From positions 4,775,034 through 4,839,033 of the forward strand of contig NC_049991.1 of NCBI RefSeq assembly GCF_000003815.2: a stretch of 64,000 bases of DNA, written 5' to 3'. The translations under genes were made by a program, and so were the position numbers. Within the stretch, counting starts at the first letter, position 1. Each line of letters opens with the position of its first letter. Below the pieces are notes generated by a model. It saw nothing but the letters and a program-made list of their open reading frames with translations, did not search any database and was not told where the DNA came from. This document shows positions 15,477-61,173 of this stretch, piece by piece. Source of the DNA: Branchiostoma floridae (lineage: Eukaryota; Chordata; Leptocardii; Amphioxiformes; Branchiostomatidae).

Positions 15477-16812
15477 TACACGTCCTTCCCCGTCCTTGCT
15501 CATGTTTTCCCAATTTTCTCTCATCCTTGCCCATCCTTCGCCATCCTTCCTTATTCTTTCTCGTCGATATCATTCCCCAATTTCTCTCATCCTTGCCCAA
15601 ACTTCGCCATCCTTCCTTATTCTTTCTAATCCTTCCCCAATTTCTCTCATCCTTCCCCATCCTTCCCCATCCTTTCTCACCCTTCCCCAATTTCTCTCAT
15701 CCTTCCCAATTCTTTCTCTTCCTTCCCCAATTTCTCTCATCCTTGCCCATCCTTCCCCATCCTTTCTCACCCTTCCCCAATTTCTCTCATCCTTCCCAAT
15801 TCTTTCTCTTCCTTCCCCAATTTCTCTCATCCTTGCCCATCCTTCCCCATTCTTTCTCACCCTTCCCCAATTTCTCTCATCTTTCCCCATTCTTTCTCTT
15901 CCTTCCCCAATTTCTCATCCTTGCCAATCCTTCCCTATTCTTTCTTATCTTTCCCCAATTTCTCGAATCCTTCTCCATCCTTCCCCATCTTTTCTCGTCC
16001 TTCTCTAATTTCTCTCATCATTCCCCATCATTACATCACACATTACATTACATCCTAGCTCATCCTTTCCCATCCTGAAAGCGGCCTGCTGGCCGATTTG
16101 AGCTTCTCATGAATAAATAAAGGTTCAAACAAACAAACAAAAATCCTTGCTCATCCTTCCCAATCATTTCTCATCAGTCCCAAATTTCAAATTTCTCTCA
16201 TTCTATTCCAATTTCTGTTATGCTTTCCCATCATCTCTCATCCCTCACCAATTTCTCTCATACTTCCCAATCCTTATCTATTCTTTCATTTCCTTCCCCA
16301 AATTCTCTCATCATTGCCTATCCTTCCCCATCCTTTCTCATCCTTCCGCAATTTCTCTCATCCTTGCCCTCCCTTCGCCATCCTTTCTTTTTCTTTCTCA
16401 TCTTTCCTCAATTTCTCTCATCTTTGCCCATCCTTCCCCATTCTTTCTTATCCTTCCCCAATTGCTCTCATCCTTCGCCATCCTTCCCTATACTTTCTTA
16501 TCCTTCCTTAATTTCTCTCATCCTTCCCAATCCTTTCTTATCCTTCCCCAATTTCTCTCATCCTTGCCCATCCTTCCCCATCCTTTCTCACCCTTCCCCA
16601 ATTTCTCTCATCCTTGCCCATCCTTCCCAATCCTTTCTCGTCCTTCCCCAATTTCTCTCATCCTTGCCCATCCTTCCCAATCCTTTCTTATCCTTCCCCA
16701 ATTTCTCTCATCCTTGCCCATCTTTCCCTATACTTTCTTATCCTTCCTTAATTTCTCTCATCCTTGCCTATCCTTCCTTCCCCAATTTCTTCCATCCTTG
16801 CCCACCCTAAGG
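15477..16812. repeat. 50-bp polypyrimidine minisatellite
   Basis: A tandem repeat of about 50 bp built from 'TCCTTCCCCAATTTCTCTCA' plus 'TCCTTGCCCATCCTTCCC'-type text. It is almost purely C/T on the + strand and therefore G/A on the other. Open frames in both directions (Pro/Ser/Leu/Phe-rich on +, Gly/Lys/Arg/Glu-rich on -) are repeat translations. The array is split at 16077-16140 by a short retroelement tail. Confidence 0.95.
16077..16140 (+). mobile_element. Solo 3' tail of a retroelement
   Basis: About 64 bp: a short hairpin (GCGGCC-TGCT-GGCCG), the text 'GAGCTTCTCATGAATAAATAAAGG' in part, and a (CAAA)n end. The same tail in reverse orientation ends the element at 17924-20592. This is therefore an extreme 5' truncation that landed inside the polypyrimidine minisatellite. 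Confidence 0.75.
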
Positions 16813-24300: not shown

Positions 24301-27300
24301 ACACTTACTCCCTTCCTCAAGATTTAGCCACAACTGAAAAATCTTGGCCATAGTACTTCCAGAAAATGAGGTCTCAAACTTGAAAGGGAGCCGCTAGGAC
24401 GCCCATTATTGAAATGGACCTTGTTTTTCGGACACCTACTAAATATTGAAATGGCCCACCCAGAGTTATGCAGTGCTCAAATAGAGACACACATATACAT
24501 AGAAGTTCTGCTGCAGTATTCCAGACGGAACAGCAGAGAACCGACTGTATATAGTGTAAGATAAATGTCAGAGCGAGAAGCGAATGTATAAAGTGCATAA
24601 TTAACGCCGGATGGAACTACTTTCCGGATGGTACCTAGGCAATTTCTCGATGGGAATGGAAAATGTTTTACATAGAACAGTCCGTTTTGCATAGATAGGG
24701 GTGTTCAGGAAAATTCCATTCTTGTCTAGGGGCATTTTTTTATTCATCTTCGAGGGTAATGATGTTTGGGATTGGTCAATATCTACAAAAGGTTGATATC
24801 TAACAATAGATTTTTTCAATGGAGATGAAGATGGCTTGAAATATACTGTATTTGCTAGCGAGTAAATGTCGGCCTTTCATTTTTACATTATTTCCTTAGT
24901 TATGGGCACAGTTTCGAAAATACTCGTGGCAGATTGTCGTGTTTTGCTTGTGTTGAGTAGTCTTGGGTTTAACGTTTCATAAAAAGCCGACTGACTTTAT
25001 TTCATTTGGTTTAGTAAACGCTCGCTACTACATGCTTTAGAGGATAGCATCCTGGTGACCGGAAAATGCCAAAATCAGTTTTCACGGAATTGTCAACCTT
25101 TGCTTTTTTACGTAACATCTGACTTTCTCGCCCTTACAGTATGCAATTATCCACTTGGAATGCAATCTGGTGCCATACCTGATAGCAGCATTACTGCATC
25201 CTCGTACTGGTATGATAAGACTGGCTATCACGCGCCAAAGACCGCACGGCTACACGGTACTGCAGGCGTTTGGTTGCCCAGGAAAACCGTCGGCGAATGG
25301 TTGCAGGTAGGCATACATTTTGATAGATTAAGGACACTAAGGATCCCTCAGTGCCAGTGTATGACCACTGACCTCGAACAAGGTCGACGCTCCTATATTC
25401 CGGATCTCGCACGCTACGCGCACGAAATTGTTATACTAACTTAAGACTATGCCTGAAGGCAGATTGCATACAAAGTAAAACAGTGGTTTACAGAATCATA
25501 TACTTAACAAAGAAGGAACATGAAATATATAGATAAAGTCAAGTTAAGTTCTTGGTCCTGAGATTTTTCTGGAAAAAATTAAGTAACAGGACGGTAAAAT
25601 TCTTTTAAAAGTTTGAGACGTCTCCGATTCGGTAATGGCTCAGACAAAACTAGAAGAAGATTTAAGTTTTCAGCTTGAAGAAAACAAACAATACTACAAC
25701 ACAGTACCTGCATCTGCTTGCTAAGTAGTAAAAGTTATGCCCTACTTGAATAAAAAAAAACGTTCACTGCAATTGTACCCATGTGCATCATAATGAGCTT
25801 ATAACGGTACTTAGACCTAGTTATCTTACTAGAAAATGTTGAATGGCTTCATGTAATTTTATGATGAAAATTTTCTGAATGGAAGGTGTGGTAATTTTTT
25901 CACTTTCGAAAAAAATAGGATCTGGCAATTCCAATAACCAATTAAATATGCATAGGAGCTCCTGTAGAAGAGTATATTCTTCCATATGGGTCCGGGCATA
26001 TTGGGTACGCTCCGTTTTGACATGAAATAAGTTCACATATTCGTTCACTTTTGGGGAGAATTTACCGTTAAAATGTTCCATTTTCGCGCAGGGGTGATTT
26101 GGAACAGTTCAATGTTGCATGGTATGGCTGAAATATGCTGTATTTGCTCCCAAGCAAATGTGGGCCTTTCTAGTTTATCATACATAATAGAACTTTATTG
26201 CACGACAATTGTACATGGTACAAAGTATGGCAACAACTATTACATAAAGTACAAAATAGAGGTATAGGATAAAGCTTAACATCGTATTTAACATAACAAT
26301 AAGGGCTAATATGCATAATTAATTCATGTAGTATCATAATGGGCTAATATGCATAATTCATTCATGTAGTATCATAATGAAGTAGGCTAATCATTAGCTT
26401 CAGTATTCTTTCTAATAGCAGAGCAGTCTTTGATGTATTTGCCTATTTTTGCATTATGGGAGTTCTGACATCTAAATAAATGTGCAAATCTGTCTGTAGC
26501 ATCGAGTCTTTTGAAATATGTTGTACTTGTTTCGAGAAACGTGAATAATTCCTTGCGTAGACTAGCGTATCTAGAACATTCCATTATAAAATGAAATTCA
26601 TCTTCAATATGATTTGGGCAGAATGGACAGAGCCTTTGGTCAGGGGCTACATTGTAGTATCTGCCTGTTTCAACATTCAACTTGTGGCTACTAATTCTTA
26701 ACTGAGTTACTGCTTTGCGAATCTCAAAGTTATCTATATTATAAAGGTACATTTCTTGTTCATAACATTCTTTTGATTTGCTAAGAAAAGACAGTTTTGA
26801 ATTGTTTTCAATAGAACTAAACCACTCCTGTATGTATATATCTTGTAGCCTGGTGCGCAATTGGTTAGCAATATAATCTGTTTTATAAGCCTCAGGTTTC
26901 GTCCATATTTGCCCAAGGCCGTGGTAACAGAGAATATCCTTAACATGATTAATCCAGTCTTGATTATCAGTAAATACAGTGTTGTATGCATCGCGAAGCA
27001 GAGAGTCCTCAGGTAAGTTTACCAAACGGTGCCAGTATTTAATGAGCGGTATTCTAGCAGATATTATAAAGGGAAAAGTTCCTAACTCTCCTCTCACGCC
27101 GTCATTGGATGATTTTGAGTGGACTCCGAGTAGAAATTTTTGAAAACGTATGTCAAGTATGTCAAAATCCGGTATATCTAAAGGGAGGCGTGTGAAAAGC
27201 CATCTTATGTTGATGAGCTCGGCTGTATCTAGCTCTGAATCTGAAAGATTTGATGCAATGGGGGACATTTCACTCTGCACAATGTGGCCTCGTATCAGTG

Positions 27301-30300
27301 AATAGTATACGTAATCAAGACTTATTTAGATCTGCCCTTCTTACATTTTACGTATAAACTATAACAAAATGTATTTATGCATTCAGGTTGATTTAGGACA
27401 AAGAAAGAGCGTCACAGCCACCGCCATTCAGGGCGACGCTACCAACTGGATGTGGGTGAAGTCCTACTCACTACAGTACAGTTTAAATGACATTGATTGG
27501 ACGACATATAAAGGCGACGATGGCTCCGTAAAGGTATATTTACAGACATGTCTTCTTATTCTATTCGATTTCTAAACAGAAATAAGGAAATATGCCCTTC
27601 TACCTTTACGAGGGAGAACAGTTATCTGTTAGGGTGTATATTTAACTTGCTAATGATATTGGTTCCATCTGTCATTTGTAGTGGTGACGAGCTGAATGTA
27701 TTATGCAAAAGAGAAAAAAAAACTCACATTGATTATTTGTTTACCATCTAGGTATTTCCAGGCAACAATGACGGGGCCACCCCTGTAAGAAACACATTGG
27801 ACAACCCCATTCAAGCTCGTTTTGTGCGTTTTTTGCCTCTGACCTATAAAGGCTATATGTGTATGAGGGTTGAAATTTACGGCTGTTCAGTGTTCGGTAC
27901 GTTTCTTTCGAAAATCCAAGCATTTTCAAAGCATAACTAATTGACTTGACACTGCTCCTCTGCTGTTGCATCACTTTTATTGTGTGGAAGGCTACTAACG
28001 GTGATACAGCAAACAAATAGGGTGTCTGGATTCGTCACGGCTAGCTACTCAATGCTACTATAAGGCTAATTAAGCTTGGCCTGAGCCATGGCCCGTCCAG
28101 TAGATATGTTAAACAATTAACAGCCCACGGGGTAGGTTAGATGACCTGGCGGGGTATAGCCTTAGCGTGGCCGACCACTTATAAATCTCAAGCTCTATAT
28201 ACATACAGCAGCATTGTAAGGATCCGGATCACTGTCGACGTTGCTGGGTAAGCATCTTAACCCTCAAACACCCGATCGCGAGTGGGGTCCATTTGGACCC
28301 CAGGCGTAAATTTTGATGTACCATTTGAACATTTTTGATCTGAAGAAGAATTCCTTCCGTGACTTTGTCGATCAATATCTTCTACACCTTCTCCGAAGTT
28401 TTTACGAAGATTCTGTAGAAATTATAAATAAAGTCCGTGTTCAGTCCGTCTGGGGTCCAAACGGACTCCAGCAAAAAAGCGCAGTTTTTAAAACAAACTT
28501 TTGAGACTAACTCCCTAACTACTTATTGTATGACTACAAAACTTTCAGAGGATAATAAACATATAAAACTAAATCCACATAGATACTTCTGTGTCATTAC
28601 CATGAAATTTGACGACATTATGACGTAATTTAGATAATAAGGGCGGCCATCTTAGATTTTCACTAATGACGTCATGAAATTAGCATAAATTATGAATTTT
28701 GAATCATGAAAATAACCTTGAATTTCATAGAATTTATTTGTTGTTAGAAGACAAGTGTAGGTTACCAAGAAAACATTGTTTAAATCGAAATTGACAATTT
28801 TTTGCAAAAATATGCCTTTTGGAATTCCGTTGCCATGGCAACCCCAAAAATGATAAACTTACTTTATTGACTAAAAACGTTTGCTTACTATATTTTGTGA
28901 TATATTACAAAGTTTCGTAGCTTTAGCACTAGCCGTTCATGAGTTATACGACATAAAAGTTGCTGAGAGCCTCAAAATTCCCCTCTCTGGTAAGAATAGG
29001 TTTAGTGCAAAACGTGGTCCTTCTGATCTTTTGCATAAATTATGATGATGAGCTGGAATAAGCAACACTTTTACATGTCAAAATATTCCTCCTACATTGA
29101 CGAAGCAATATATGTACAATGGTCACCGATAAGAATTGGAACTAAGATTTTATGAACAAAACATTTTGGAGTCCGTTTGGACCCCACTCGGTCATTTTAG
29201 TCGCAAAAAAGGTCGGGTGCTTGAGGGTTAAGCGACTAGCGGCACAAAAGAAAATATGGCAACATAATAATACGCAGGGCAGTGTAGGAAAAGACAGGAC
29301 AAGGTAGGAGAGTGCAGCACAATATACGAGAAAGCAGGACAATGCAACCCAAGAGTATATTCTTTTCCACCTCCGCCTAAAGGTTCTAAAATCGGGTATT
29401 TCTATTTGTTTTCACCAACACCAGAGGGCTGCTCTGAGCCACCGACCCTAACGAACACCATCAGGAGCGCCTGTTCCTCCCCCTACACACACGGAGAGAA
29501 ATGTACGTACGAGTGCACTACAGGGTTCACGCAAGCCTCTGGCAGCAGCGAAAAGACCTGCAATGATGGACAATGGACTGGAATCGACCTCGTCTGTGAC
29601 TCAGGTATTTCATGATTAGAAGAAGCCAATTTGAAAGAGGCGGTCAACAATGTAAAAGCCTTGACGATGAACTATAACAATAATCTAAGCATAAGGCCAC
29701 GGCAAGTATATTTTATGGATGACATCCGCGCGCTCATTACTCTTTGTCTGATTTCAGAAAAAAAAAGAATTTTTTTCTTCTTTAGAGATGGTCGACATGA
29801 AGAAAAATTACCAAAATGAGCAAATGTGTTGTAGTAATGATTGTACTTCGGAAATGACACTAGCGAGATAGCCATGGCTGAAGGAGTGTAGAAGTGAAAC
29901 TAGTTCGTTATTAGTTGCAAATGTGGCACCACTATATAGAAGCCATGAGTTACCAACTTTGTTAGGCCCCTTTTCCACTTGACGGCGCTCTCACCGCGCT
30001 CTCGCTGCGATGGGAAATTAGCCAGAGCACCGTGAGAGCGCCGCGACGCCAGAAAAGCTGCTCTAGTGGAATCTCTCCGGCGACATAAATTTCTTTATCA
30101 TGCCATGTTTTTAGCGTAAATCATACAAAACTACAACACTTCGATTTATTGAAAATAGGACTTCAATGACAGATAAAGAACAAATTTAAAACCCAATGTC
30201 ATAATGCTGGTATCATAAATTGGTGTCATAAACCACTGTTGAGACCCATTGCGCTCGCTGCGCTCGCTGTGTGCTCTGTTGGTGCTCACGGCGCTCGCTG

Positions 30301-33300
30301 TGCGCTCTTTTGGCGCTTTCTCTGCGCTCATCGTTGGATCGCCGTCCACGGCGCTCTCACGGCGACTGCTTTGAGCAGGTTCAAAACAGTCACGTAGGTA
30401 ATCACGACCATGGCGACCTTGGAGCTCCCATCGCGCTCTCTGCGCGCTTCCATGGCGACCTTGGAGCTCCCATCGCGCTCTCTGCGCGCTTTCATGACGA
30501 CCTTGGCGATCCCATCGCGCCCTCTGCGCGCTTCCATGACGACCTTGGCGATCCCATCGCGCTCTCTGCGCGCTTCCATGGCGACCTTGGCGCTCCCACC
30601 GCGCTCTTTGCGCGCTTCCATGACGACCTTGGCGATCCCATCGCGCTCTCTGCGCGCTTCCATGGCGACCTTGGAGCTTTTGATGTGTTAAGTCCAGGTA
30701 TGCAGGGTATGCAGGGTCTGATTGTTGTGATTAGATTGCCGGGCAGGTGCACGTGTGTTAAATCATGTCGATAGATATAGATCAGTATAGGGCAGTGATT
30801 GGCAGGTTTGCTGCCGGCTTACCAAAACTGTATATACTCAAGTCTACCTTAACTATTTGTCAACAATGCATTCTTATATTTATTTCCCTTATCATGATAA
30901 TTCTTGCGGGTGATATTCATCCCAACCCAGGGCCACCCTTTCGCAAGGAAATTAATTTTATGCATATTAATGTTAACAGCCTGTCTGCTGGGTCCAAAAT
31001 GGACGAACTGTCCGCTATTGTAATTAGATTTAAATTAGATGTAGTCGCTATTTCCGAAACTTGGTTGGGAGATTCTGTTAATTCTGCCGACATATTGTTA
31101 AATGGGTTTCAGGCCCCCATTCGCCGCGATAGAAACAGGCACGGCGGCGGTGTGCTCATTTATGTATCTGATGAGATCGCCTACAAGAGACGCCTAGATC
31201 TGGAGCCTTCACCTGTTGAATGTATTTGGCTTGAACTCTCCACAGGATGCTCTCGCATCATATTTTCTGTTTACTACCGTCCACCTGGACAGGACTCTGG
31301 CACTGCTAATGAATTCATTGACTTATTCATCGACTCTGTCTTTGCAGCTGGGTCCTCTAATTATGACGCTATGATAATAACAGGTGATTTTAATGCCAAA
31401 CACAATGCATGGTGGGCTCCTGATCCAATTACCCCAGTTGGCATGAAATTATTTCAAGCATCAACTATGTTAAACCTCACCCAGGTGATCAGTGAGCCGA
31501 CATGTGACCTGTCACGCTCGCCGTATTTGATTGATTTACTGTTTACTGATGTGGGGAAGCTCGTTAAATCAACCATTGTTTTGTCTCCACTCTCAGCATG
31601 TCACCACTGTCCGATAATTACCACCTTTAATCTATCTTTAAAGTGCCCAAAGCCCTATGCTCGTACTGTATGGGACTATTCTAAGATTGACCTTAACTTA
31701 CTAGAAGATTTCTCCTTTGATCCCAAATGGAATGATATTTTCTATTGTCGATGATGCATGTGACAAGCTCGTTGAACTTATATTTGGAGCTAAATCCAAA
31801 TGTGTTCCTCACAAAGTTATAGTTTATTAACCAAGACCAAGAGACAAACCTTGGATGTCTTCCAGAATTAGATCGTTAATGCGGCAACGAGACAAATTAC
31901 ATAGAAAAAGCCAAAGTATCAAATAGTCCTACATTGTGGTCTTTATACCGCAATGTTAGAAACAAGCTTGTACGTGAAATATCTCTTTCAAAGTCTAACT
32001 ACTACAACCGTCTCGTTGACTCATTGACGTCTTCTCCTTGTTCGAGTAAGAAGTGGTGGCACATTGTCAAAACATTCTTTTGTAGCAAAGCGAGCTCTAC
32101 CATTCCGCCGTTAAAGACGTGTCACTCTTATGTAACTGATTCTAGTGAAAAGGCAAGAATGTTCAATAATTTTTTCTCTGCTCAGGCCTCTGTGGATGAC
32201 ACCAAGGCAAGCCTTCCACAAATTGATTACCTTACCGACGTCCGTTTGTCAGAATGTTTTACTACACCTGCTGAGGTTGAACTTTACGCATCGTTTTTAG
32301 ATATATCTAAAGCATGTGGTTACGACAACGTCGACAACCATTTTCTTAAACTTATATGTCCCTTCATATCTGACAAAATCGCTTATGTTTTTAACATATC
32401 TCTTTGCCATGGTGTCTTTCCAGAAGCTTGGAAACGGGCAAATGTGGTTCCTATTTTCAAAAAGGGAAATCCCGATGATGTATCTAATTACCGTCCCGTA
32501 TCTTTGCTACCTAGCTTGTCCAAAATCTTGGAAAAAATTGTATTTAAACATTTGTATAACCATCTGATGTCCCAAAATTTACTTTATTCTTTCCAGTCCG
32601 GCTTTATCCGCGGAGATTCTACTGTTAATCAGATCATTTGTATTACCGACAAAATTTTTGATGCTCTAGATTCAAACAGAGAAGTCAGAGCGGTCTACCT
32701 CGACTTTTCAAGAGCATTCGATAAAGTCTGGCATAAAGGCCTTGTTTTTAAGTTGCAAAGAAACGGGGTTGACGGTTCAATCTTAAATTGGTTTTACAGT
32801 TATCTCTCTAGTAGAGAGCAAAGAATTGTGATTGATGGTCAATGTTCAGATTGGAGCCATGTTGGCGCAGGTGTACCTCAGGGTTCGGTACTGGGCCCCG
32901 TATTGTTCCTTGTGTACATTAACGACATGGTGGATGGTTTAGTTACTTGCCCTTTCTTATTTGCGGACGACAGTTCCTTATTGGATGTCGTGGAAAATCC
33001 CAACTTAAGGCCACACCAATTTAATTTCTTGGTTCACGGATTCGCTCGCTCCTATTTTTTGGAAAAAAAAAATAAAAATAAAAATTACCACTCAGCAAAT
33101 TTTCACCATAAATGAAACCATTCACCAACTTTCTGGTGTAGCAAACATAAAGACTGACACTACTTTTGTAATTTTCAACGAACAGGTGCTGTTATTGTAC
33201 AGTAATAGTCTTTTGTACTTTTTTCAAGCTGAAAACTTTTTATTCTTTATGTTTTGGATTAGCCCCTACCTTTACCCCAACCATTTTACAATTTCTATTT

Positions 33301-36300
33301 TTATTTTTATTTCGCCCTCTCGCTCCATATTTTTTATGAAAAAATCCGTGAACCAAGAAATTAAATTGGTGTGGCCTAACAGCCATTCGACTCAATAGTG
33401 ATCTCATGAAGATATCATCTTGGTCTTCAAGATGGCTTATGGAGCTAAATCCCTTAAAGACCGAAGAAATTTTTATTTCCAAAAAATTGAATCCCCCTCA
33501 CCATCCACCTCTCTTCCTCAACAACTGTGTTATTAAGTCCGTTAAATCTCATAAGCACATAGGAACTTTTTTAACAACCACCATGTCTTGGGAAATGCAA
33601 ATTTCCAATGTGATTGCCAAGGCATCTAAACGAGTGTCTGCACTTACCAAATTGAAATTTAGATTACCACGAACAGTACTTGATACTATTTATAAGTCTT
33701 TCATCCGTCCTCTTCTTGAGTATGCCGATATCATATGGCATGGATGCACTTTATGTGATCCCCAACGTTTAGAACGTGTTCAGTACGAGTGTGCACTTTC
33801 AGTCTCAGGGACAGTAAGAGGTTCTTCTTACTCTTCGCTCCTTGCTGAACTTGGTTGGGAAAGACTTTCTGATCGGCGACACGTTCACTCCTTTGTCATG
33901 TTTTACAAGATTGTGAACGGCCATACTCGCCAGTATCTTAAGGACTTGATCCCTCCCGTAGTTTCTGCTTCTACTTCTCATAATCTTCGCAACAAACACA
34001 ACCTACGGGTACCGATTTGCACTACAAGTCGATACCAAAAGTCTTTCATTCCTTATGCAACGCAACATTGGAATGGTCTTGACATTGCTGTTCGTTCACT
34101 TAATTTTTCACTGTACAAAAAACATTTAGTTAAATTAGAACGCCCCTCTATCATTAAACATTTAAGTTACGGTCCTCGATACACCTGCGTCCTCCTTACA
34201 CGCCTTCGCATCGGCACCTGCAGTCTTAACCATAGTTTATTTATCCGCAAGTTAGCTTCTAGTCCAGTCTGTAACTGTGGGTGTCAATGTGAAAGTGTTG
34301 TACATTTTTTGTTATACTGCCCTACATATCAACTATACAGAATTAATTTTTTCGGCAATCTACAGAACCTGCTAGGCAATACTCTTGACTTCAATAGTTT
34401 ATCCGAATCAGCCCGTATCCATCTACTATTAAGGGGTTCACCTTTCCTGTCACATTCTACAAACTGCAGTATCTTACAGTTAACCCAGTTATACATTGTA
34501 CATACGAAACGTTTTGCAACTACCTTGTAACCTGACTCATATGTAAATAGCTGTGAACTGTTTGTTTTGATATTGTCATTTTTGTTCTTGTCAGTTATCT
34601 TATTTTGAGAGGTGATGTGAATATTAGCGTTCTGCTAGAGTGTATCACCTCTCTGTCCTGTTCTGTACATTGATGTTGAATAAATAAAAAAAAAAAAAAA
34701 AATAAAAAAATCGCGCTCTCTGCGCGCCTCCATGGCGACCTTGGCGATCCCACCGCGCTCTCTGCGCGCTTCCATGGCGACCATGGCGATCCCACCGCGC
34801 TCTCTGCGCGCTTCCATGGCGAGCTTCGAGCTCCCATCGCGCTCTCTGCGCGCTTCAATGGCGAGCTTGGAGCTCCCACCGCGCTCTCTGCGCGTTTCCA
34901 TGGCGATCTTGGAGCTAGCTCCCATCGCGCTCTCTGCGCGCTTCTATGGCGACCATTGCGATCCCACCGCGCTGTCTGCGCGCTTCCATGGCGAGCTTTG
35001 AGCTCCCATCGCGCTCTCTGCGCGCTTCCATGGCGACCATGGCGATCCCACCGCGCTCTCTGCGCGCTTCCATGGCGACCTTGGAGCTCCCATCGCGCTC
35101 TCTGCGCGCTTTCATGGCGAGCTTGGTGATCCCACCGCGCTTTTTGCGCGCTATTGTCAGTTTGAGGTCGCAGAGGGAGCGCCTTGAGAGCGCCGCCCTA
35201 TAAAGGAAAGCGGGTATTAGTGATACCAGTCGGAAACACTAGGTCACTTTTACTACACCAGTACCTGTCTTGATGTACAAGATATGCCATGTGTTGTCCC
35301 TTTTATTCTTGTTACAACGTTTATGGTGTCTATTTTTAAAATGTAGCCATGCTGTTTAATTTCTCCTTAACTCACTATTTTTGCAGTCTAAAGAGGGTGT
35401 CATCCATAAAATTTATTTGCTGTCGCCTTAATGGAATACAATTATCTTCGCCAAGGTTATCCATGTAGCTTGATTTGAGAGCTTGAAAGAGAAGTTGTTG
35501 ACCAATGATGATTATTACTTTTTAGATGCAAATCAGGAGGTGAAATAATTGCATATTAAGAAGTTTTATGAATCAAGTTGGACTCTCCAACATATAACAT
35601 ACGTAACTGAGATAGAGGAGGATTTTGATAGACAACAAATATGTGTCACTTGCACAAGTAATGAGAAAATACTATTGTTCCGTAGCGGTAAAAGAAGGGA
35701 ACTTATGGATTGTATCATTAGGAGGCTATTATTACCTTAGATTGGGCATCAGGCCAGATCAGTTCTGAACAGTATAATACATAAAGTATTCACAACAGAG
35801 CTCCATTTGCATAATTCGTGTGAGACAGATATTAGCTAAAACAGATATGTAGCTTGTAACCATATTTATCAAAAAAATCACTGACCATATTGATTGTATC
35901 ATTAGGAGTCGTGCCAGGAATGGAATACATGACTTTAGAAACCAATTGGTTTTATGTTTCTGACAGTAACAGTTTGTGGTTATTGTTGGTCGCCCTGCCT
36001 GTGATCTGTACCCTAGATGGAGAAATATAGGAGAAATAGGACAATATATTAGAAAGCAGGACAATACAGGAGATTAAGGACAGTATATTAGGAAGCAGGA
36101 CAATATAGGGGGAAGCAGAACAATATAGGAAAAATCATGGACATTTCGGTAAACTGAGGAGTATATATGAGAAAGCAATAAAATTTCAACAAGGCATTCT
36201 TCTTCCTTTCGTAAAAACTTTTAATATAGAGCCTCTGAGGTCTCTGTGTTCTCTTCCTTGACTCTGACCTCTCCTCGGCACGTACAATGAAACCGTATGC

Positions 36301-39300
36301 ACTAATGTTATTTACAGCTCACGCTGCTGACCCAAACATTGCATCAGGAAGAGCTGCGTTTCAGTCTAGTGTTGACTCCATGGGATCCCCCGGTCTAGCT
36401 GTCGACGGAAACAGAAGTCCCCAAAGGGCAAGCAGGTTTTGCACAAAAACATCTCAAGAAGACGACCCATATTGGTATGTTGATTTGGGATATTCGGTCA
36501 CTGTCGACCACGTCACCATCGTCAACCGTCAAGACTCTTTGATTGAGAAGATCACGCCCTTCGACCTCCACGTTGGGGACAGCACTGACGTGACTAGGAA
36601 CCCGATGTGCGGCGGGCATCATCGCTTCTGCCTGACAGATACCGAGCATGTTGTCCGCTGCGGCGGGATGAGCGGCAGGTACGTGGGCATCAGACTCCCG
36701 GGGAAGAAGCGAACCCTATCGCTGTGCGAAGTGGAGGTTTATGCAGGTGGGTAAGGCAGATTTAGACAAATATTGTAATGATGAAAGCAATCATTTGGAC
36801 AGCGTAACCGTTGGATTTGTTCCAAGTTTTTCCTCACTATTATATCACAGTCTTCTTAACTGAAGGCCTGAATGCTCATCTAGAGCTATAGCTTTAAATC
36901 CTTTGAACTGATCATAGTTGTACTCAAGCATGTTTTTCATTACCCCTGTGTGTTGTTATTAACGTTGTCCTATTTTATTTTCTTACAGCTACAAATATAG
37001 CTTGGGGAAAACCAACTGTTCAGTCAGACGTCGCATTTAACGGGGTTGCCTCCCGAGCGACTGACGGTTGTAGGGACCCGGACTGGAATAGCGCGTGCTG
37101 CACGTCCACTCCGGCGCAGTCGAACCCTTGGTTGCGAGTAGACCTTGGTACCGAAGTCAGTGTCCGGTGGGTGGTCATCATCAACCGCCAGGACAGGACA
37201 GGAAGGCGACTTAACCGCTTCGAGCTCTACATTGGAAACGAAGAACGCGTAAAACGGAACCAACCCTGCGGCAGTGTTATTTACATCCCCACTAATAAGA
37301 ATAAGATTGCCACCAACTGTAACGGGCAAAGAGGGCGATATGTGGGGATCTTTCTGCCTGGCAACAGCCGTACCTTGTCACTCTGTGAAGTTGAAGTTTA
37401 TGAAGGTGTGTTTGTAAACATTTCTTTTCATCTTTTATGTTTTCTTTAATCATTATGACCCTTTAAAGGTCAAATGAAAGAGAGAGGGAGAGAGGAAGGA
37501 GACAGACAGACAGACATTAACATTCTAATTTTTCAGGTACGGTGACCAGAAAGAGGACCTCTGAAGTGCGTGGTACCGAGGGCCAGGATTGTGGAGAACA
37601 TCAGGTTAGTATGTACAGTAGTGCGGCAGTAACTACATGTAGATAAAGCAGATTTACATCTCACTAGTACTAAGCTTGCTGTTTGGGGCCTGTTAGTAAT
37701 GTTCAATTTATTGTTTGTTTTTTTGCTTGTTTTTGATAATGCTGGTAAGCTCTGTTCTCTACAATTTGTTAAGCATTTCCTATTGCATTCAATTCCATGC
37801 TTGTGCATTGCCATTTCCAAACAATCCCTTGCAATCCAGTGTTTAACATGCACATACAAACGTATTGCTATGTCCAACAGGCAGGAGACACCTGGTTATC
37901 TGATGACGGTGAAGAGAACTGCATCTGTGAGATGAATCAAACAGTGTGCTACGAGGTGATATGTGGAGAGGAGGGACAAGACAAGCCATTCCAGGGAAAA
38001 GGCGGACTGTGGACCTGTCCGGAGCCGGCAGCTGAGGAAGAGGAATCCGGTAAACAAAGTTTAGCTATCGATCTGAAAACTATTGGAAATAGTCAATAGA
38101 TGACTACATCTCAGATGCCTACAAAATGCAGACCTCCGTCACTAACCACCATAGCTGTAGTTAAGCACAGATAATAGTGTAAGTGGAAAAACGAGGTTAG
38201 GATAATAGTAGTTCACAGTTCCTAGAGTGTCAAAGGTGAAGTTTATAAAGGTAGGTTTGTAAACATTTCTTTTCAGTTTTTCTGCTTTCTGCAATCATTG
38301 TGACCATTACTAAGGTTAGTTGAAAGAAAGTGAGGAAGAAACAAACAGACAGACAGACATCAAAATTCTAATTTTTCAGGTACGGTTACCGGAAAGAGGA
38401 CCTCTGAAGTGCGTGGTACCGAGGGCCAGGATTGTGGAGAACATCAGGTTAGTGTGTACAGTAGCGCGGCAGTAACTACATGTAGATAAATCCGATTCAC
38501 ATCACACTAGTACTAAGCTTGCTGTTTGGGGCCTGCTAGTAATGTTCAATTTATTGTTTGTTTATTTGCTTGTTTTTGATAATGCTGGTGAGCTATGTTC
38601 TCTACAAGTTGTTAAGCCTTTTCTATTGCATTCAATTCCATGCTTGTGCATTGCCATTTCCAAACAACCCTTGCAATCCAGTGTTTAACGTGCACATATA
38701 AACGTATTGCTATGTCCAACAGCAAGGAGACACCTGGTTATCTGATGACGGTGAAGAGAACTGCATCTGTGAGATGAATCAAACAGTGTGCTACGAGGTG
38801 ATATGTGGAGAGAGTGGTGAAGACAAGCCATTCCTGGGAAAAGACGGACTGTGGACCTGTCCGGAGCCGGCCGCTGAGGAAGAGGAATCCGGTAAACAAG
38901 GTTTAGCTACGGATCTGAAAACAATAGGAAAATGTTTTAAATTGTTATGATACCTGTTCAAAATATTAAGTACAATCATATTTTTTTTTGATAGATGTGA
39001 AAGTGTGAGTTTCTGTTTAAAACCAAAATGCATGCTTACATTTTCGTCATATTACTGTTTATCATTGAGAGTGTATGAGGTATAATTCCGCGAGGTTATA
39101 TCACTTACACATCAGGGAAATGTAGTATCGCGTGAAGAGCTACCACAGGAAAGTTGGAGCCAAAAGGAGTACATAAGTTTTATTTAAAGCAATGTTAACT
39201 CTGTTGGATCTGGTTGTTACCAATTGATGTTTTATTTTGCAGGCTAAATTCCAAGCTGATAAGAGCCAGCACTGTTCATCACTTGAAGCGCTCAGCAACT

Positions 39301-40630
39301 GATGGAACTTTCCAATGAGAGTCAACCTGGTGTGCCTTACGAGGGTAGTTTAATTAGGATTTCGCCTGCCTCCTTCTGGTTATTGTAGAAGACCTAAATT
39401 TCAAACGTACAGATATCCATAAAATGCCATACACTTATTCTTATTTTGGAACTTCCGAAAGTTTCTATCAGGGTCCCCAATATACGAGGTGCGTAAAATG
39501 TGCTTTTAAAGACTAATTTCACCATGACCAACAGCAATTAAAGTTTTGCACACTTATTACCTAATGATATGCAACAAGTGTCGTTATCTTATATGTCGAA
39601 TACATCAAACAATAACCAGAAGTTATAGGCCAGGAGAATTTTTATTGAAAAGCTTTATACCTATCATTTACTTTTTCCGAATAACTCTCTAGTCCCTTTT
39701 TCCTGCACTATATGGACGCTATTTGCAACAGCTAGTTTTCTGTGACCTACGTCAAATCTACGTTGTCTCAACAGATACTTGCCGTCTTTCATCCCTCCTC
39801 TATCAAGTATCGTAATGGTGATCTTTTTTATCTTCTTAACTTAACTAAAGCTGTTCATTTGGTGCCTTCAGTGTATCTGACACTCAATTTTAAATTTCTT
39901 GCACACTTCTATACCCTTCTGTATCAAGTATCATAATGGTCATCTTTTCTGATCTTCTAAACTAGAGGTGGCTGCTCATTTGGTGCCTTCTGTGTGTCTC
40001 CTACTCCATTTTCGTGCGCACTAATGTACCCTTCTTTATCAAGTATCGTTATTGAAATCTTTTCTGATTTTCTAAACTAGAGGCTGCTCATTTGGTGCCT
40101 TCTGTGTATCTCATACTCCATTTTCTTGCACACTACTGTACCCTCCTTTATTAAGTATCATTATTGTAATCTTTTCTGATCTTCTAAACTAGAGGCTGCT
40201 CATTTGGTGCCTTCTGTGCATCTCATACTCCATTTTCTTGCACACTACTGTACCCTCCTTTATTAAGTATCATAATGGTGATGATTTCTGATCATCTAAA
40301 CTAGACGCTGTTCATTTGATGCCTTCGGTGTATCTCATATTTCATTTTCTTGCACACTACTGTACCTCTACTGCGGGAGTATGGAGATACATTACTTACA
40401 TTATATGTTTTAAAACATATCTTCTAAATTAGTTAGCAGTGTCGACAGCAGTGAGGTTGAAAGTGACGTTTTCAAATAAAAGGAAACGTTCAGTGTTTAG
40501 AGTCGTAAATGTAAGTGTTCGAGGTCTTGGAGAAGAGACATCATCTAGAATAAGAGCGGGTCTAAACATTCGAGTTCAGTTGTGCATTGAAAAAGAAAAC
40601 AAAACCTTTGTCACGATACCAGTAATTTAG
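21325..40630 (+). CDS. Secreted multi-domain lectin (discoidin, sushi, 2x fucolectin, 2x VWC-like)
   Basis: Likely a secreted carbohydrate-recognition protein. Exons: 21325-21385, 21579-21668, 22376-22465, 25140-25306, 27387-27533, 27752-27896, 29425-29604, 36318-36746, 36989-37405, 37537-37604, 37881-38049, 38380-38447, 38723-38891, then a last exon at 40440-40630 or a two-residue ending at 39243-39247. All junctions are GT-AG, phases agree, and both endings give a multiple of three (796 or 734 residues). Order by residue: signal peptide 1-20, linker to 80, F5/8C 81-233, CCP 234-293, fucolectin 294-436 and 437-575, VWC-like 576-654 and 655-733. Module borders are phase 1, the classic layout for domain shuffling. 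The introns carry many transposons, including a 5.25-kb nest between CCP and fucolectin exons. The domains are clear; ligand and role are inferred from the families. Confidence 0.75.
21579..21668 (+). CDS. Lectin exon 2: polar linker
   Basis: Thirty codons, phase 1 at both ends, rich in Lys/Glu with a helical, possibly coiled-coil end (EIKEAELLLKELE). No domain recognised. Confidence 0.65.
22376..22465 (+). CDS. Lectin exon 3: acidic linker
   Basis: Thirty codons, phase 1 at both ends, Asp/Asn-rich, ending in HGKRQS, a possible dibasic processing site just before the discoidin domain. Confidence 0.65.
22610..23250. repeat. Intronic tandem repeat, about 155-165 bp, four units
   Basis: In lectin intron 3. 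Each unit has the text 'CCGAATGACTTGAAATTTGG' or a variant (near 22640, 22805, 22970, 23130), followed by a T-rich stretch ending in 'TTTGG(C/G)'. No coding. Confidence 0.75.
23410..24070. repeat. Intronic tandem repeat, about 120-135 bp, five or six units
   Basis: Units marked by 'GAAGAGTCCATTCTTGCA' variants (about 23417, 23540, 23674, 23792 and 24028) and by 'TTTTGGACT(G/T)GT' text. Lectin intron 3. Frames over it repeat and have no domain. Confidence 0.75.
24145..26180. repeat. Dispersed 50-bp repeat, three copies
   Basis: The text 'GAAATATGCTGTATTTGCTC' followed by 'AAATGTCGGCCTTTCTAGTT' occurs at about 24151, 24833 (diverged) and 26128, on both sides of lectin exon 4. Confidence 0.6.
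25140..25306 (+). CDS. Lectin exon 4: F5/8C domain, part 1
   Basis: Shows the discoidin hallmarks CNYPLGMQSGAIPDSSITAS and the conserved GEWLQ at its end. The first domain cysteine is here. Phase 0 out. Confidence 0.85.
26183..27300 (-). mobile_element. 5'-truncated LINE in lectin intron
   Basis: Reverse-oriented LINE tail between lectin exons 4 and 5. It contains an intact C-terminal ORF2 frame and a 3' UTR ending with GCAATAAAG on the - strand. A 40-bp direct duplication ('GGGCTAATATGCATAATT', near 26304 and 26341) lies in its 3' UTR. Confidence 0.7.
26387..27280 (-). pseudogene. LINE ORF2 C-terminal region with zinc knuckle
   Basis: A 297-codon frame without the RT catalytic boxes. It contains 'GVRGELGTFPF', 'LIKYWHRL', 'LRISSHKLNVETGRY' and a CPFC-x9-HF-x3-C knuckle (LCPFCPNHIEDEFHFIMEC), the C-terminal signature of a non-LTR retrotransposon family seen three more times here. 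The ORF is undamaged, so the insertion is probably fairly young, but truncation makes it inactive. Confidence 0.75.
27387..27533 (+). CDS. Lectin exon 5: F5/8C domain, part 2
   Basis: Starts VDLGQRKSVTATAIQG, the central strands of the discoidin fold, and continues through 'YSLQYSLNDIDWTTYKG'. 49 codons, phase 0 at both ends. Confidence 0.85.
27752..27896 (+). CDS. Lectin exon 6: F5/8C domain, part 3
   Basis: VFPGNNDGATPVRNTL, 'ARFVRFLPL' and the closing 'MRVEIYGC' complete the domain and supply its second cysteine. Phase 1 out. Confidence 0.85.
28261..29227. mobile_element. piggyBac-like non-autonomous element with TTAA sites
   Basis: A 967-bp element whose ends read CCCTCAAACACCCGA and, on the other strand, CCCTCAAGCACCCGA. 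It is flanked on both sides by TTAA (28257-28260 and 29228-29231), the piggyBac target. Subterminal 'GTGGGGTCCATTTGGACCCC'-type inverted text occurs at both ends and near 28445. There is no transposase. Located in lectin intron 6. Confidence 0.75.
29255..29345. repeat. Purine-rich short tandem repeat
   Basis: About 19-bp units of the type 'AGGACAATATACGAGAAAGC', imperfect. Related repeats occur at 36000-36170, just before lectin exon 8. Confidence 0.5.
29425..29604 (+). CDS. Lectin exon 7: sushi/CCP module
   Basis: A single exon, phase 1-1. It has six cysteines, the pattern 'GEKCTYECTTGF' and 'CNDGQWTG..LVC', matching a CCP module with an extra disulfide as in selectins. Confidence 0.8.
30409..30678. 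repeat. 42-bp minisatellite, left part
   Basis: Six full units and a partial one, starting every 42 bp from 30409 (CATGGCGACCTTGGAGCTCC then CATCGCGCTCTCTGCGCGCTTC). Because 42 is a multiple of three, several frames stay open on both strands and give 14-residue repeats. These are not taken as genes. Confidence 0.9.
30765..31754 (+). pseudogene. LINE ORF2 N-terminus: 2A-like motif and endonuclease
   Basis: From ATG 30765. Residues 28-48 form a hydrophobic segment (LTICQQCILIFISLIMIILA) followed at 49-57 by GDIHPNPGP, which resembles the 2A 'stop-carry on' peptide consensus D(V/I)ExNPGP with His in place of Glu. The exonuclease-endonuclease-phosphatase fold follows: 'HINVNSL', 'ISETWLGD', 'HGGGVLIYV', 'VYYRPPG', 'ITGDFNAKHNAWW' and 'ACHHCPI'. 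The frame breaks at about 31742 and resumes in another frame with an in-frame TAA near 31828, so the copy is dead. Confidence 0.85.
31934..33008 (+). pseudogene. LINE ORF2: reverse transcriptase domain
   Basis: The reading text starts at about 31908 after a second frameshift. It contains 'SKACGYDNVDNHFLKLI', 'ANVVPIFKKGNPDDVSNYRP', 'SGFIRGDSTVNQ', 'VYLDFSRAFDKVWH', 'GVPQGSVLGPVLF' and the catalytic FADD box (LFADDSSLLDVV). It is cut after 33008 by a 368-bp MITE, and the frame resumes at 33380. Confidence 0.85.
33009..33376. mobile_element. Harbinger-like MITE inside the LINE RT
   Basis: A 368-bp element with inverted ends of about 35 bp that start GGCCACACCAATTTAATTTC on both strands. It is flanked by TAA at 33006-33008 and 33377-33379. 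Removing the element and one TAA rejoins the interrupted frame with no other change. It is therefore the youngest insertion in the nest. Confidence 0.9.
33380..34530 (+). pseudogene. LINE ORF2 C-terminal part
   Basis: Continues the RT thumb ('SWSSRWLMELNP', 'HIGTFLTTTMSWEMQI') and contains 'FRLPRTVLDTIYKSF', 'LLEYADIIWHGC' and the knuckle 'CNCGCQCESVVHFLLYCP'. It runs to the TAA at 34528-34530 without a further break. An ATG at 33406 is internal and not a real start. Confidence 0.85.
34607..34653 (+). other. 3' UTR stem-loop of the LINE
   Basis: A perfect 10-bp stem with a 27-nt loop about 30 bp before the A-rich tail. In L2/CR1-type elements such stems are the RT recognition site. Confidence 0.7.
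34711..35160. repeat. 42-bp minisatellite, right part
   Basis: About ten more units of the same repeat, continuing after the LINE tail. One unit has a 6-bp insertion (near 34913). Unit types with 'TTGGAGCTCCCATCGC' and 'TTGGCGATCCCACCGC' alternate irregularly on both sides of the LINE. Confidence 0.9.
35220..36000. other. No gene seen
   Basis: AT-rich intron DNA between the Harbinger-like element and the next lectin exon. Open frames are short and show no domain. Confidence 0.5.
36000..36175. repeat. Purine-rich short tandem repeat before lectin exon 8
   Basis: Imperfect units like 'AGGACAATATAGGAGAAAGC' about 19-25 bp long, related to 29255-29345. Confidence 0.6.
36318..36746 (+). CDS. Lectin exon 8: fucolectin (FTP) domain 1
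   Basis: A whole domain in one phase 1-1 exon: 'NIASGRAAFQSS', 'GLAVDGN', 'YWYVDLG', 'VTIVNRQD' and the closing 'GRYVGIRLPGKKRTLSLCEV'. The RxDx4(R/K) sugar-contact pattern is present as RQDSLIEK. The upstream histidine of the usual motif is not at the expected spacing. Confidence 0.85.
36989..37405 (+). CDS. Lectin exon 9: fucolectin (FTP) domain 2
   Basis: A second complete domain, phase 1-1: 'NIAWGKPTVQS', 'ATDG', 'PWLRVDLG', 'VVIINRQDRTGRR' and 'GRYVGIFLPGNSRTLSLCEV'. RxDx4R is present (RQDRTGRR). Again no histidine is seen at the usual upstream distance. Confidence 0.85.
37537..37604 (+). CDS. Lectin exon 10: VWC-like module copy 1, first exon
   Basis: Short exon, phase 1 in and 0 out, with one cysteine in 'TEGQDCGEHQ'. 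Duplicated at 38380-38447. Confidence 0.75.
37881..38049 (+). CDS. Lectin exon 11: VWC-like module copy 1, second exon
   Basis: AGDTWLSDDGEENCICEMNQ and 'TVCYEVICGEE': spacing like the first half of a von Willebrand C module. It ends in an acidic EEEES run. Phase 0 in, 1 out. Confidence 0.75.
38380..38447 (+). CDS. Lectin exon 12: VWC-like module copy 2, first exon
   Basis: Almost identical to 37537-37604, 843 bp downstream, with the same phases. Confidence 0.75.
38723..38891 (+). CDS. Lectin exon 13: VWC-like module copy 2, second exon
   Basis: Near-identical to 37881-38049, with a few conservative changes (for example GESGED for GEEGQD). Ends in phase 1. Confidence 0.75.
39795..40372. repeat. 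About 115-bp tandem repeat, five units
   Basis: Units carry 'CTGCTCATTTGGTGCCTTCTG' and 'TCTTGCACACTACTGTACCC'-type text with 'TATCAAGTATCATAATGGT'. It lies just before the candidate last exon of the lectin. Confidence 0.85.
40440..40630 (+). CDS. Candidate terminal exon of the lectin
   Basis: After the acceptor AGTTAGCAG, a 63-codon frame with a stop fits the phase 1 donor at 38891. The peptide has beta-strand-like alternation ('VRLKVTFSNKR', 'FRVVNVSVRGLG', 'LNIRVQLC') loosely like a netrin-type fold. The rival ending is an acceptor at 39242 giving Gly-stop at once. Transcript data are needed to choose. Confidence 0.4.
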
Positions 40631-42585: not shown

Positions 42586-42589
42586 ATCC

Positions 42590-43230
42590 GGACTGTTGTC
42601 AGGGCCCACACAAGCCAGCTCTTCGGCAGCAGGTATAACATACCCCCGAGGAAATTATGCCGCCGCCCGCTACCATCTTCCCTGAAGGCCTTAGATTCAG
42701 TCAGGCGAAATCACATGGACTGTTGTCAGGGCCCACACAAGCCGGCCCTCCGGCAGCAGGTCTAACATACCCCCCGAGGAAATTTTGCCTCCGCCCGCTA
42801 CCATCTTCCCTGAAGGCCTTAGATTCAGTCAGGCGAAATCACATGGACTGTTGTCAGGGCCCAGACAAGCCGGCTCTTCGGCAGCAGGTCTAACATATAC
42901 CCCCGAGGAAATTTTGCCTCCGCCCGCTACCATCTTCTCTGAAGGCCTTAGATTCAGTCAGGCGAAATCACACGGACTGTTGTTAGGGCCCACACAAGCC
43001 GGCTCCTCGGCAGCAGGTATAACATACCCCCGAGGAAATTTTGCCTCCGCCCGCTACCATCTTCTCCGAAGGCCTTAGATTCAGTCAGGCGAAATCACAC
43101 GGACTGTTGTCAGGGCCCACACAAGCCGGCTCTTCGGCAGCAGGTCTAACATACCCCCGAGGAAATTTTGCCTCCACCCACCGCCCCTCCCCACAAGTCC
43201 ATCTTTAATTAGATTCAGTCAGGCGAAATC
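42590..43230. repeat. About 128-bp minisatellite, five units
   Basis: Units start with 'GGACTGTTGTCAGGGCCCAC' at about 42590, 42717, 42845, 42974 and 43101, and include 'CCCCGAGGAAATTTTGCCTC' and 'GGCCTTAGATTCAGTCAGGC'. Very little divergence. Open frames (42657-42893, 42785-43078) are repeat translations. Confidence 0.9.
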
Positions 43231-43713: not shown

Positions 43714-43957
43714 GGCCCCATTTTCACTAGATGGCGATCGCGCTGCGCTACCACTGTGACCTAAATAGGAATATGTGTAGCCTTTGCTTTCACACTATGT
43801 ATATCATACAAAATGTAAAATTGTGGCTGGGAAGACGACAAAACACACAAAGTGTAAAAGGATTCGTTTCTTGTCTATACAATTCGTTAAGCGATATGTA
43901 AAATTCGAGGTCGCAGAGAGAGCGCGGTGAGAGCGCCGTCCTAGTGGAAAGGGGGTA
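43714..43957. mobile_element. Harbinger-like MITE (244 bp)
   Basis: The left end GGCCCCATTTTCACTAG and the right end (other strand TACCCCCTTTCCACTAGG) are inverted, with inner 'GGCGCTCTCACCGCGCTCTC'-type text. Flanked by TAA at 43711-43713 and 43958-43960. It is a compact relative of the element at 29965-35216. Confidence 0.8.
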
Positions 43958-49256: not shown

Positions 49257-50228
49257 TTATCTGTCGATGATGTCCTCTATCTCCCTCAGCACTTCCTCAA
49301 GATCGTCAGGTTGGGGGAGGTCTTTGTCTTCCCTCAGTCCGCCATCTTGAAGGCCCTCATTTTCCTCCAGTCCGTCGAGTTCAAAGCTCTCGTCTTCCTC
49401 CATGGCCAGGTCATCAGGTTGAGGGTTCTGGTCTTCCTCCAGTCCATCAGGTTGAGGGTCTTCCTTCAGTCCGCCAAGTTCAAGGCCCTTGTTTTCTTCC
49501 AGTCCACCAAGTTCAAGACCCACGTCTTCCCCCAGTCCATCAGGTTGAGGGTCCTGGTCTTCCTCCAGTCCATCAGGTTGAGGGTCCTGGTCTTCCTCCA
49601 GTCCACCAAGTTCAATGTTCTCGTCTTCCTCCAGTCCGTCAGCTTGAAGGCCCTCGTTTTCCTCCAGTCCGTCAAACTGAAGGCCGTCGTCTTCCTCCAG
49701 TCTGCCAGCCTGAAGGCCCTCGTCTTCCTCCAGTCCGTCGAGTTCAAGGCCTTCGTCTTCCTCCATGGCCAGGTCATCAGGTTGAGGGTTCTGGTCTTCC
49801 TCCAGTTCATCAGGTTGAGGGTCCTGGTCTTCCTCCAGTCCGCGAAGTTCAAGGTTCTCGTCTTCCTTCAGTCCGTCAGGTTCAAGACACTCGTCATCCT
49901 CAAGGCCCTCGTCTTCCTCCAGTCTGTCAAGTCGAAGGTTCCGGATTTCCTCCAGCATGTCTAGATCTGCCTCGAGAACGTTCCAGATTTCCTCCACCCC
50001 GTCAGGCTGAGGATCGTGAAGATCCCTTGTTTCCTCGTACCCGTCAGGCTCTGGAATGTCCCGGATGTTGGAGGGGTCTGGGATGTTGGAGGGGTCCCGG
50101 ATGTCCGCCAGGTCCCGGATGTCCTGCAGTTTTCTGTCGATCTCGTTGAGGACGAGTGACACCTTCTTGGTAGCTTCTTCCCCCGCCTTGATGGCGTCGG
50201 TCGTCAACTCGGACATGGAATCTAACAT
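49257..50228 (-). CDS. VWA gene last exon: acidic 11-residue repeats
   Basis: One 972-bp exon. It starts MLDSMSELTTDAIKAGEEAT, passes a 'DPSNI' repeat, and then carries about 18 units of 11 (sometimes 7-13) residues, typically LEED-x-(D/G)-(P/L)-(Q/E)-x-(D/G)-G. Five of eleven residues are acidic in the common unit. A larger internal duplication is visible ('NPQPDDLAMEEDE' occurs twice). A 255-codon open frame on the other strand (49197-49964) is the antisense image of the same 33-bp repeat. Confidence 0.75.
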   Translation of the reverse strand: MLDSMSELTTDAIKAGEEATKKVSLVLNEIDRKLQDIRDLADIRDPSNIPDPSNIRDIPEPDGYEETRDLHDPQPDGVEEIWNVLEADLDMLEEIRNLRLDRLEEDEGLEDDECLEPDGLKEDENLELRGLEEDQDPQPDELEEDQNPQPDDLAMEEDEGLELDGLEEDEGLQAGRLEEDDGLQFDGLEENEGLQADGLEEDENIELGGLEEDQDPQPDGLEEDQDPQPDGLGEDVGLELGGLEENKGLELGGLKEDPQPDGLEEDQNPQPDDLAMEEDESFELDGLEENEGLQDGGLREDKDLPQPDDLEEVLREIEDIIDR

Positions 50229-57765: not shown

Positions 57766-58215
<450 letters not shown>

Positions 58216-58216
58216 C

Positions 58217-61173
<2,957 letters not shown>

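Follow-up and report, generated by a model that had tools for sequence, protein, structure and literature searches.

Nested transposon insertions around a 42-bp minisatellite in a predicted intron of the amphioxus Branchiostoma floridae

Introduction

The order in which transposons were active is reportedly deduced, in the TinT approach, from which element lies in which. The target duplication of PIF/Harbinger transposons, the closest described relatives of one element treated here, is TWA. A published account gives them 3-bp target duplications, inverted ends of 25-50 bp and, in autonomous copies, two genes (PMC9179366), which encode a transposase and a Myb-like protein. Another close system is Tetris, a transposon of Drosophila virilis, for which the growth of arrays from the transposon's internal repeats has been described (PMC4079207). 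The opsins of amphioxus are a case in which transposons close to duplicated genes have been considered (PMC5802833). Here, we analyzed a 64,000-nucleotide stretch of Branchiostoma floridae (C13:4775034-4839033, called the window below), in which two miniature inverted-repeat transposable elements (MITEs), a Harbinger-like element, a 42-bp minisatellite and a long interspersed nuclear element (LINE) are nested in one predicted intron. A literature search among open-licence papers found no publication concerned with this locus.

Results

Levels of the nest and their boundaries

The window was compared with a genome of 513,431,437 bases in 431 contigs. The genome-wide counts are lower bounds, because scoring was limited to the best candidates. 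Taken as a whole, the structure is very probably a stack of ordinary insertions in the intron of a duplicated gene, made in the order outer MITE, Harbinger-like element, array growth, LINE and inner MITE. A first-pass annotation, made from the letters of the window, had named four nested levels, and all of them were found, with their TTA and TAA flanks, inverted ends, split array and LINE domains. The relative order it gave to these four levels was upheld as well. It had overlooked the MITE that encloses them and the LINE's missing ordinary duplication, and it had no view of the gene duplication that took place between array and LINE. A list of the parts of the nest follows.

29695..29964, + strand: outer MITE, left part (level 0), with the end GGCCACGGCAAG; preceded by TAA at 29692-29694; end-pair score 41
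29965..35216, + strand: Harbinger-like non-autonomous element, with TTA duplications at 29962-29964 and 35217-35219
30408..30674, + strand: 42-bp array, left half, with six whole units and a partial seventh
30675..34710, + strand: full-length LINE of the apurinic/apyrimidinic endonuclease (APE) type, with an A-rich tail; interrupts one array unit
33009..33376, + strand: inner MITE, 368 bp, with 34-bp perfect inverted ends and TAA at 33006-33008 and 33377-33379
about 34711..35153, + strand: 42-bp array, right half, with the remainder of the interrupted unit, then 10 units
35220..35427, + strand: outer MITE, right part; followed by TTA at 35428-35430, which differs from the left TAA

The enclosing level, 29695-35427, was revealed by a 36-base inverted pair found outside the Harbinger-like element. 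Inverted ends were scored against a control of 1967 random 50-mer pairs drawn from the window, in which the maximum score was 24; the inner MITE (68), the outer MITE (41) and the Harbinger-like element (36) each beat all 1967 pairs. Of 1673 first-look candidates in a search with the left outer sequence, 40 were scored as matches; they include the window and two paralogous introns, and most of the matches listed extend to a few bases from the Harbinger insertion point. Seventeen copies were fetched from the 37 matches listed outside the window and its paralogs. The insertion point is uninterrupted in every one of these 17, and L040 has exactly the pre-insertion sequence TTGTTAGTGATG. L029, which is missing its right end, and L043, which has a run of N, were left out of the flank count and of the tree described below. 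The 15 copies with both ends measure 487-605 bp, and 13 of them have identical 3-bp flanks (8 TAA, 4 TTA and 1 TTG). With such ends and with matched 3-bp TWA flanks in most other copies, the outer element, which is about 530 bp long and present in many copies, is therefore another TWA-targeting MITE. Its insertion into the intron would be the first step, and the second would be the entry of the non-autonomous Harbinger-like element into the TTA of TTGTTAGTGAT inside it. The Harbinger-like element, which had been placed first, does precede the LINE and the inner MITE, but it was inserted into an older MITE and so is not outermost.

The Harbinger-like element begins with GGCCCC, finishes with GGGTA and is without two internal segments of its 1056-bp relative L016. 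Most of its 17 distinct fetched two-ended family copies, with one locus that falls in both L004 and L008 entered once, are close to 1.05 kb in length; one measures 204 bp and one 790 bp. The target duplication is of the TWA type: it is TTA on both sides in the window, the flanks match in 14 of the 17 copies and the remaining three are TAA/TTA mixtures. The best terminal inverted block has 24 of 28 positions matched, starts 19-22 bases inside the ends and is equalled by none of the 1967 random pairs; the outermost bases (GGCC.../TACC...) pair less well. The element resembles PIF/Harbinger MITEs in its 3-bp TWA duplications, in the usual size of its inverted ends, in containing no transposase and in having many copies. 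Unlike them, it holds an expanded 42-bp array, and it has no transposase partner near the transposase matches examined: PF13359 has 114 matches genome-wide, and the same ends were not found up to 1.5 kb from the 30 of these that were examined.

The inner MITE sits in the reverse transcriptase (RT) frame of the LINE. By its size, inverted ends, target duplication and empty site, 33009-33376 is a MITE. The site is empty in all nine fetched LINE copies that span it, and once the MITE and one TAA are removed, the RT frame remains open across the joined flanks.

Paralogous introns

Gene flanks homologous to those of the window occur at three further places on C13 (4.31, 4.345 and 4.43 Mb); these places are duplicates of this intron. 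The window copy was named P0, and the others P1 (L026), P2 (L025) and P3 (L027, reversed). The Harbinger-like insertion is also found in P1 and P2, and its right part in P3. P1 has the outer MITE and, framed by TTA duplications, both Harbinger-like ends; its array runs through 18 units without interruption. In P3 the array comprises 14 units plus a partial one, and the left part of both elements is lost. P2 has about one array unit, as well as a flank deletion of 57 bp whose end falls precisely on the first base of the Harbinger-like element. At the place matching 30020/30021, P2 also holds a different insert of about 2.7 kb, with a 200-aa minus-strand frame that looks retroelement-like by eye; deletion and insert lie in L025 2193-5342. 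The insert was considered as a named LINE but left unnamed, since the frame matched no Pfam family at E up to 0.1.

The window LINE and the inner MITE are absent from P1, P2 and P3 over the 7-10 kb compared; the only matches to the inner MITE among the fetched loci are weak and partial ones, 74-78 bp long, at other places in P2 and P3. As the array is found in P0, P1 and P3, it predates their parting, and the LINE and the MITE came later, in P0 only. The three paralogs that lack these two insertions therefore represent intermediate states, which the first-pass annotation had hoped to see in other individuals. Boundaries and empty sites were observed directly, as was the lack of the LINE and the inner MITE in all three paralogs; any age for these insertions would have to be inferred.

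A tree was built from the parts of the outer MITE, with the 15 other outer-MITE copies as root. In it the four paralogs stand together (support 100), P2 branches first (93) and P1 groups with P3 (78). The gene block would have given rise to four copies on one chromosome, P2 branching first, and the array would have expanded before P0, P1 and P3 parted.

The LINE and its missing target-site duplication

Pfam domains of the LINE are Exo_endo_phos (PF03372, 5.1e-13), PF14529 (1.3e-10) and RVT_1 (PF00078, 1.4e-24), and the coding frame is disrupted by frameshifts and a stop. In its endonuclease and RT domains and its A-rich tail, the window copy resembles other APE-type LINEs. The genome search used the 3' third of the element, and 40 of 235 candidates were scored, with 74-97% identity over most of their matches. 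The 32 copies fetched have 84-97% identity to the window copy. The match begins inside the element in 31 of the 32 (L072 at the edge of its stretch); 28 reach the 3' end and four are incomplete. One other copy, L045, has the 5' end of the window LINE, which was therefore taken as full-length.

Among the 28 copies, the flanks share at least 6 bp in 20, compared to 16% in mispaired controls, and fewer in eight. Seventeen share at least 7 bp, with duplications of 7-13 bp. This set keeps L072, which has only 3 bases of 5' flank, as well as L057 and L059, whose flanks are shared and thus non-independent. The family is like APE-type LINEs in general: most copies are 5'-truncated, and 17 of 28 have duplications of 7-13 bp. 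Unlike most of its own family, the window copy is full-length and without an ordinary duplication. Instead, the phase of the array implies that 3-8 bp of one unit were lost, a range that arises because AGCT at 30675-30678 is compatible with both the array unit and the 5' end of the LINE. In a 42-bp array, this loss is indistinguishable from a duplication of 34-39 bp, which is outside the 7-13 bp range of those 17 copies.

Short target deletions occur with LINEs. A possible alternative to ordinary target-primed insertion is capture of the LINE at a double-strand break within the array. Capture would account for both the missing duplication and the loss of 3-8 bp, and the window copy does deviate from the 20 family members that share 6 bp or more, as does L045, the copy with the same 5' end, which has just 3 bases shared between its flanks. 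However, the A-rich tail and the intact 5' end are typical of normal retrotransposition, sharing of less than 6 bp is also seen in eight of the 28 other copies, and just two full-length copies are known here. A 34-39 bp duplication, moreover, would look identical in this array. We therefore consider capture at a break to be unlikely. The ordinary insertion would have taken place after the paralogs parted, in P0 only, with the full-length LINE entering an array unit, target-primed reverse transcription being the likeliest route, accompanied by the apparent loss of 3-8 bp, by whatever manner this came about. In a last step, a further TWA-flanked MITE would have entered the RT region of the LINE.

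Targeting of the minisatellite by the LINE was also considered. At E up to 1, neither array half matched any of the 32 stretches in which other copies of the LINE lie, and for the copies examined the LINE is therefore not array-specific.

As a separate observation, the first frame of the LINE (30762-31000) holds LAGDIHPNPGP, a putative 2A-like ribosome-skipping motif with H in place of E. The 2A motif is reported from some non-LTR elements.

Origin and proposed growth of the 42-bp array

The window array has 17 units in total, and its unit resembles the subterminal sequence of the Harbinger-like element itself (GGCGCTCTCACCGCGCTCT compared to GGCGCTCCCACCGCGCTCT). The array search scored 40 of 164 candidates and gave 45 rows. 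Long matches came from the window and two other C13 loci only (8 of the 45 rows), and the other 37 rows cover 74-90 bp. Outside the four paralogs, 18 distinct 42-mer modules were found, each with two 42-bp units as judged by eye; 15 measure 131 bp, two measure 120-122 bp, and one, which is interrupted, measures 318 bp. The module is absent from the 204-bp family copy L015. Since relatives of the element already hold two units, the seed arrived with the element. Among the scored candidates, arrays of more than two units occur only in paralogs of this insertion, which supports an expansion at the site after insertion, as far as can be read from sequence comparison. The two-unit module would then have grown by slippage or unequal exchange to the 14-18 units now seen in three paralogs. 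We infer that expansion took place at this site, as opposed to the array arriving expanded, and that growth was by exchange.

It is also conceivable that the array expanded before the element reached the intron, so that an already expanded element was inserted here and the sequence "Harbinger, then minisatellite" would be wrong for this site. With a two-unit seed in 18 modules outside the paralogs, expansion could have happened anywhere. Yet no array match longer than 90 bp lies outside the paralogs in the candidates scored, and we find this explanation quite improbable. For the preferred order, in which the array grew after insertion, the claim that the minisatellite followed the Harbinger-like element holds for the arrays of more than two units and fails for the seed, which came with the element. 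The claim that the boundaries alone fix the order could not be kept, as the two-unit module in relatives means that genome comparison is needed for this step.

For the comparison of units, four bases were trimmed from one 46-bp window unit and some units were set aside: in the window the broken unit and the final one, in P1 the final unit and two of 40 bp, and in P3 the final unit and the partial one. Within the left half of the window array, units differ from one another at a mean of 3.07 of 42 positions and within the right half at 4.22, so that the left half is the more uniform. The possibility that the halves diverged following the split by the LINE was rejected as unsupported, because the left-right difference lies within that of random splits. 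An origin of the two halves at separate loci, brought together by a rearrangement or an error of assembly, is extremely unlikely: the greater uniformity of the left half would fit, but P1, which is uninterrupted, is collinear with the window in both Harbinger ends, the TTA flanks, the two parts of the outer MITE and the gene flanks, the broken unit rejoins as a GAGCT...ATCG type found elsewhere in the array, and there is no N in 29400-35800.

Several observations weigh against the proposed stack and its order. The difference between units of the left and right halves (4.11) is close to the values within them (3.07 and 4.22), with a permutation p of 0.25 (15 of 17 units). In most comparisons, units are closer within a paralog than between paralogs, and unit-by-unit homology across paralogs is therefore lost. 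The flanks of the outer MITE in the window (TAA and TTA) are mismatched. The 5' end of the window LINE is common to one other copy, L045, so its support comes from a single copy. The tree uses about 480 window bases, the left part being absent in P3 and partly absent in P2, and has 78 at one node. Lastly, the approximately one unit of P2, fewer than the family's two, fits both an array that had not yet expanded and one that collapsed.

Host gene and neighboring features

The exons on the two sides of the nest and a short relative of the Harbinger-like element are as follows.

29430..29605, + strand: Sushi (complement control protein, CCP) exon upstream of the intron (PF00084, E 4.9e-08, residues 54-105 of frame 29271-29612)
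36239-36751 and 36907-37446: frames with the F5/8 type C exons on the far side of the nest (Pfam PF22633 and PF00754)
43714..43956, + strand: short relative of the Harbinger-like element, array-free, 243 bp, with TAA duplications

The end of the Sushi exon was judged by eye from the donor GT after 29605. With a Sushi exon on one side and F5/8C exons on the other, it is therefore plausible that the host is an intron of a lectin-like gene, the splice sites being predicted.

Over the F5/8C exons, window positions 35931-37180 differ from P1 by 1.6-3.6% in five 250-base steps. The flanking steps differ from P1 by 4.8-8.1%, and the same steps differ from P3 by 6.0-9.6%, a pattern like that of a gene-conversion patch.

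Other tandem arrays of the window lie at 15483-16777, 39793-40366, 42589-43179 and 49318-49901. They include CT-rich sequence (periods of 20-110 bp), a 112-bp period in 5 copies, a 127-bp period in 4.6 copies and a 33-bp period within an open frame. Two frames, 26387-27325 (- strand) and 58148-58969 (+ strand), are alike by eye and look like the C-terminal part of a retroelement; the former has no Pfam match. No known RNA family matched the window at the gathering score.

Discussion

The component elements are of known kinds, and the nest they form is clean, well resolved and ordinary. A close precedent for the array is Tetris. Internal tandem repeats seed longer arrays in both, and Tetris repeats possibly come from the element's own terminal sequence; the window unit resembles subterminal sequence. 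Tetris differs in being a foldback element with units of about 220 bp and satellite arrays of kb size, whereas the array described here has 42-bp units in 14-18 copies, at one insertion and its gene duplicates. Unlike a TinT chronology, the present analysis orders one locus, with the gene paralogs as extra checkpoints.

Each paralog has its own event at or near the array: the LINE without an ordinary duplication in P0, a re-homogenised array in P1, about one unit together with the 2.7-kb insert and the 57-bp deletion in P2, and, in P3, a deletion that has one of its ends within the array. This could mean that the array or the element ends break often and that the intron is a recurrent site of rearrangement, an idea that we regard as doubtful and put forward tentatively.

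Nested insertions date transposon families relative to one another, and an order that would otherwise only be deduced can be verified where some paralogs carry the later layers and others lack them. The locus also shows a two-unit repeat, brought in by a transposon, that grew into a minisatellite and has since changed independently in the individual gene copies, which makes it a small test case for the origin of tandem repeats from transposons.

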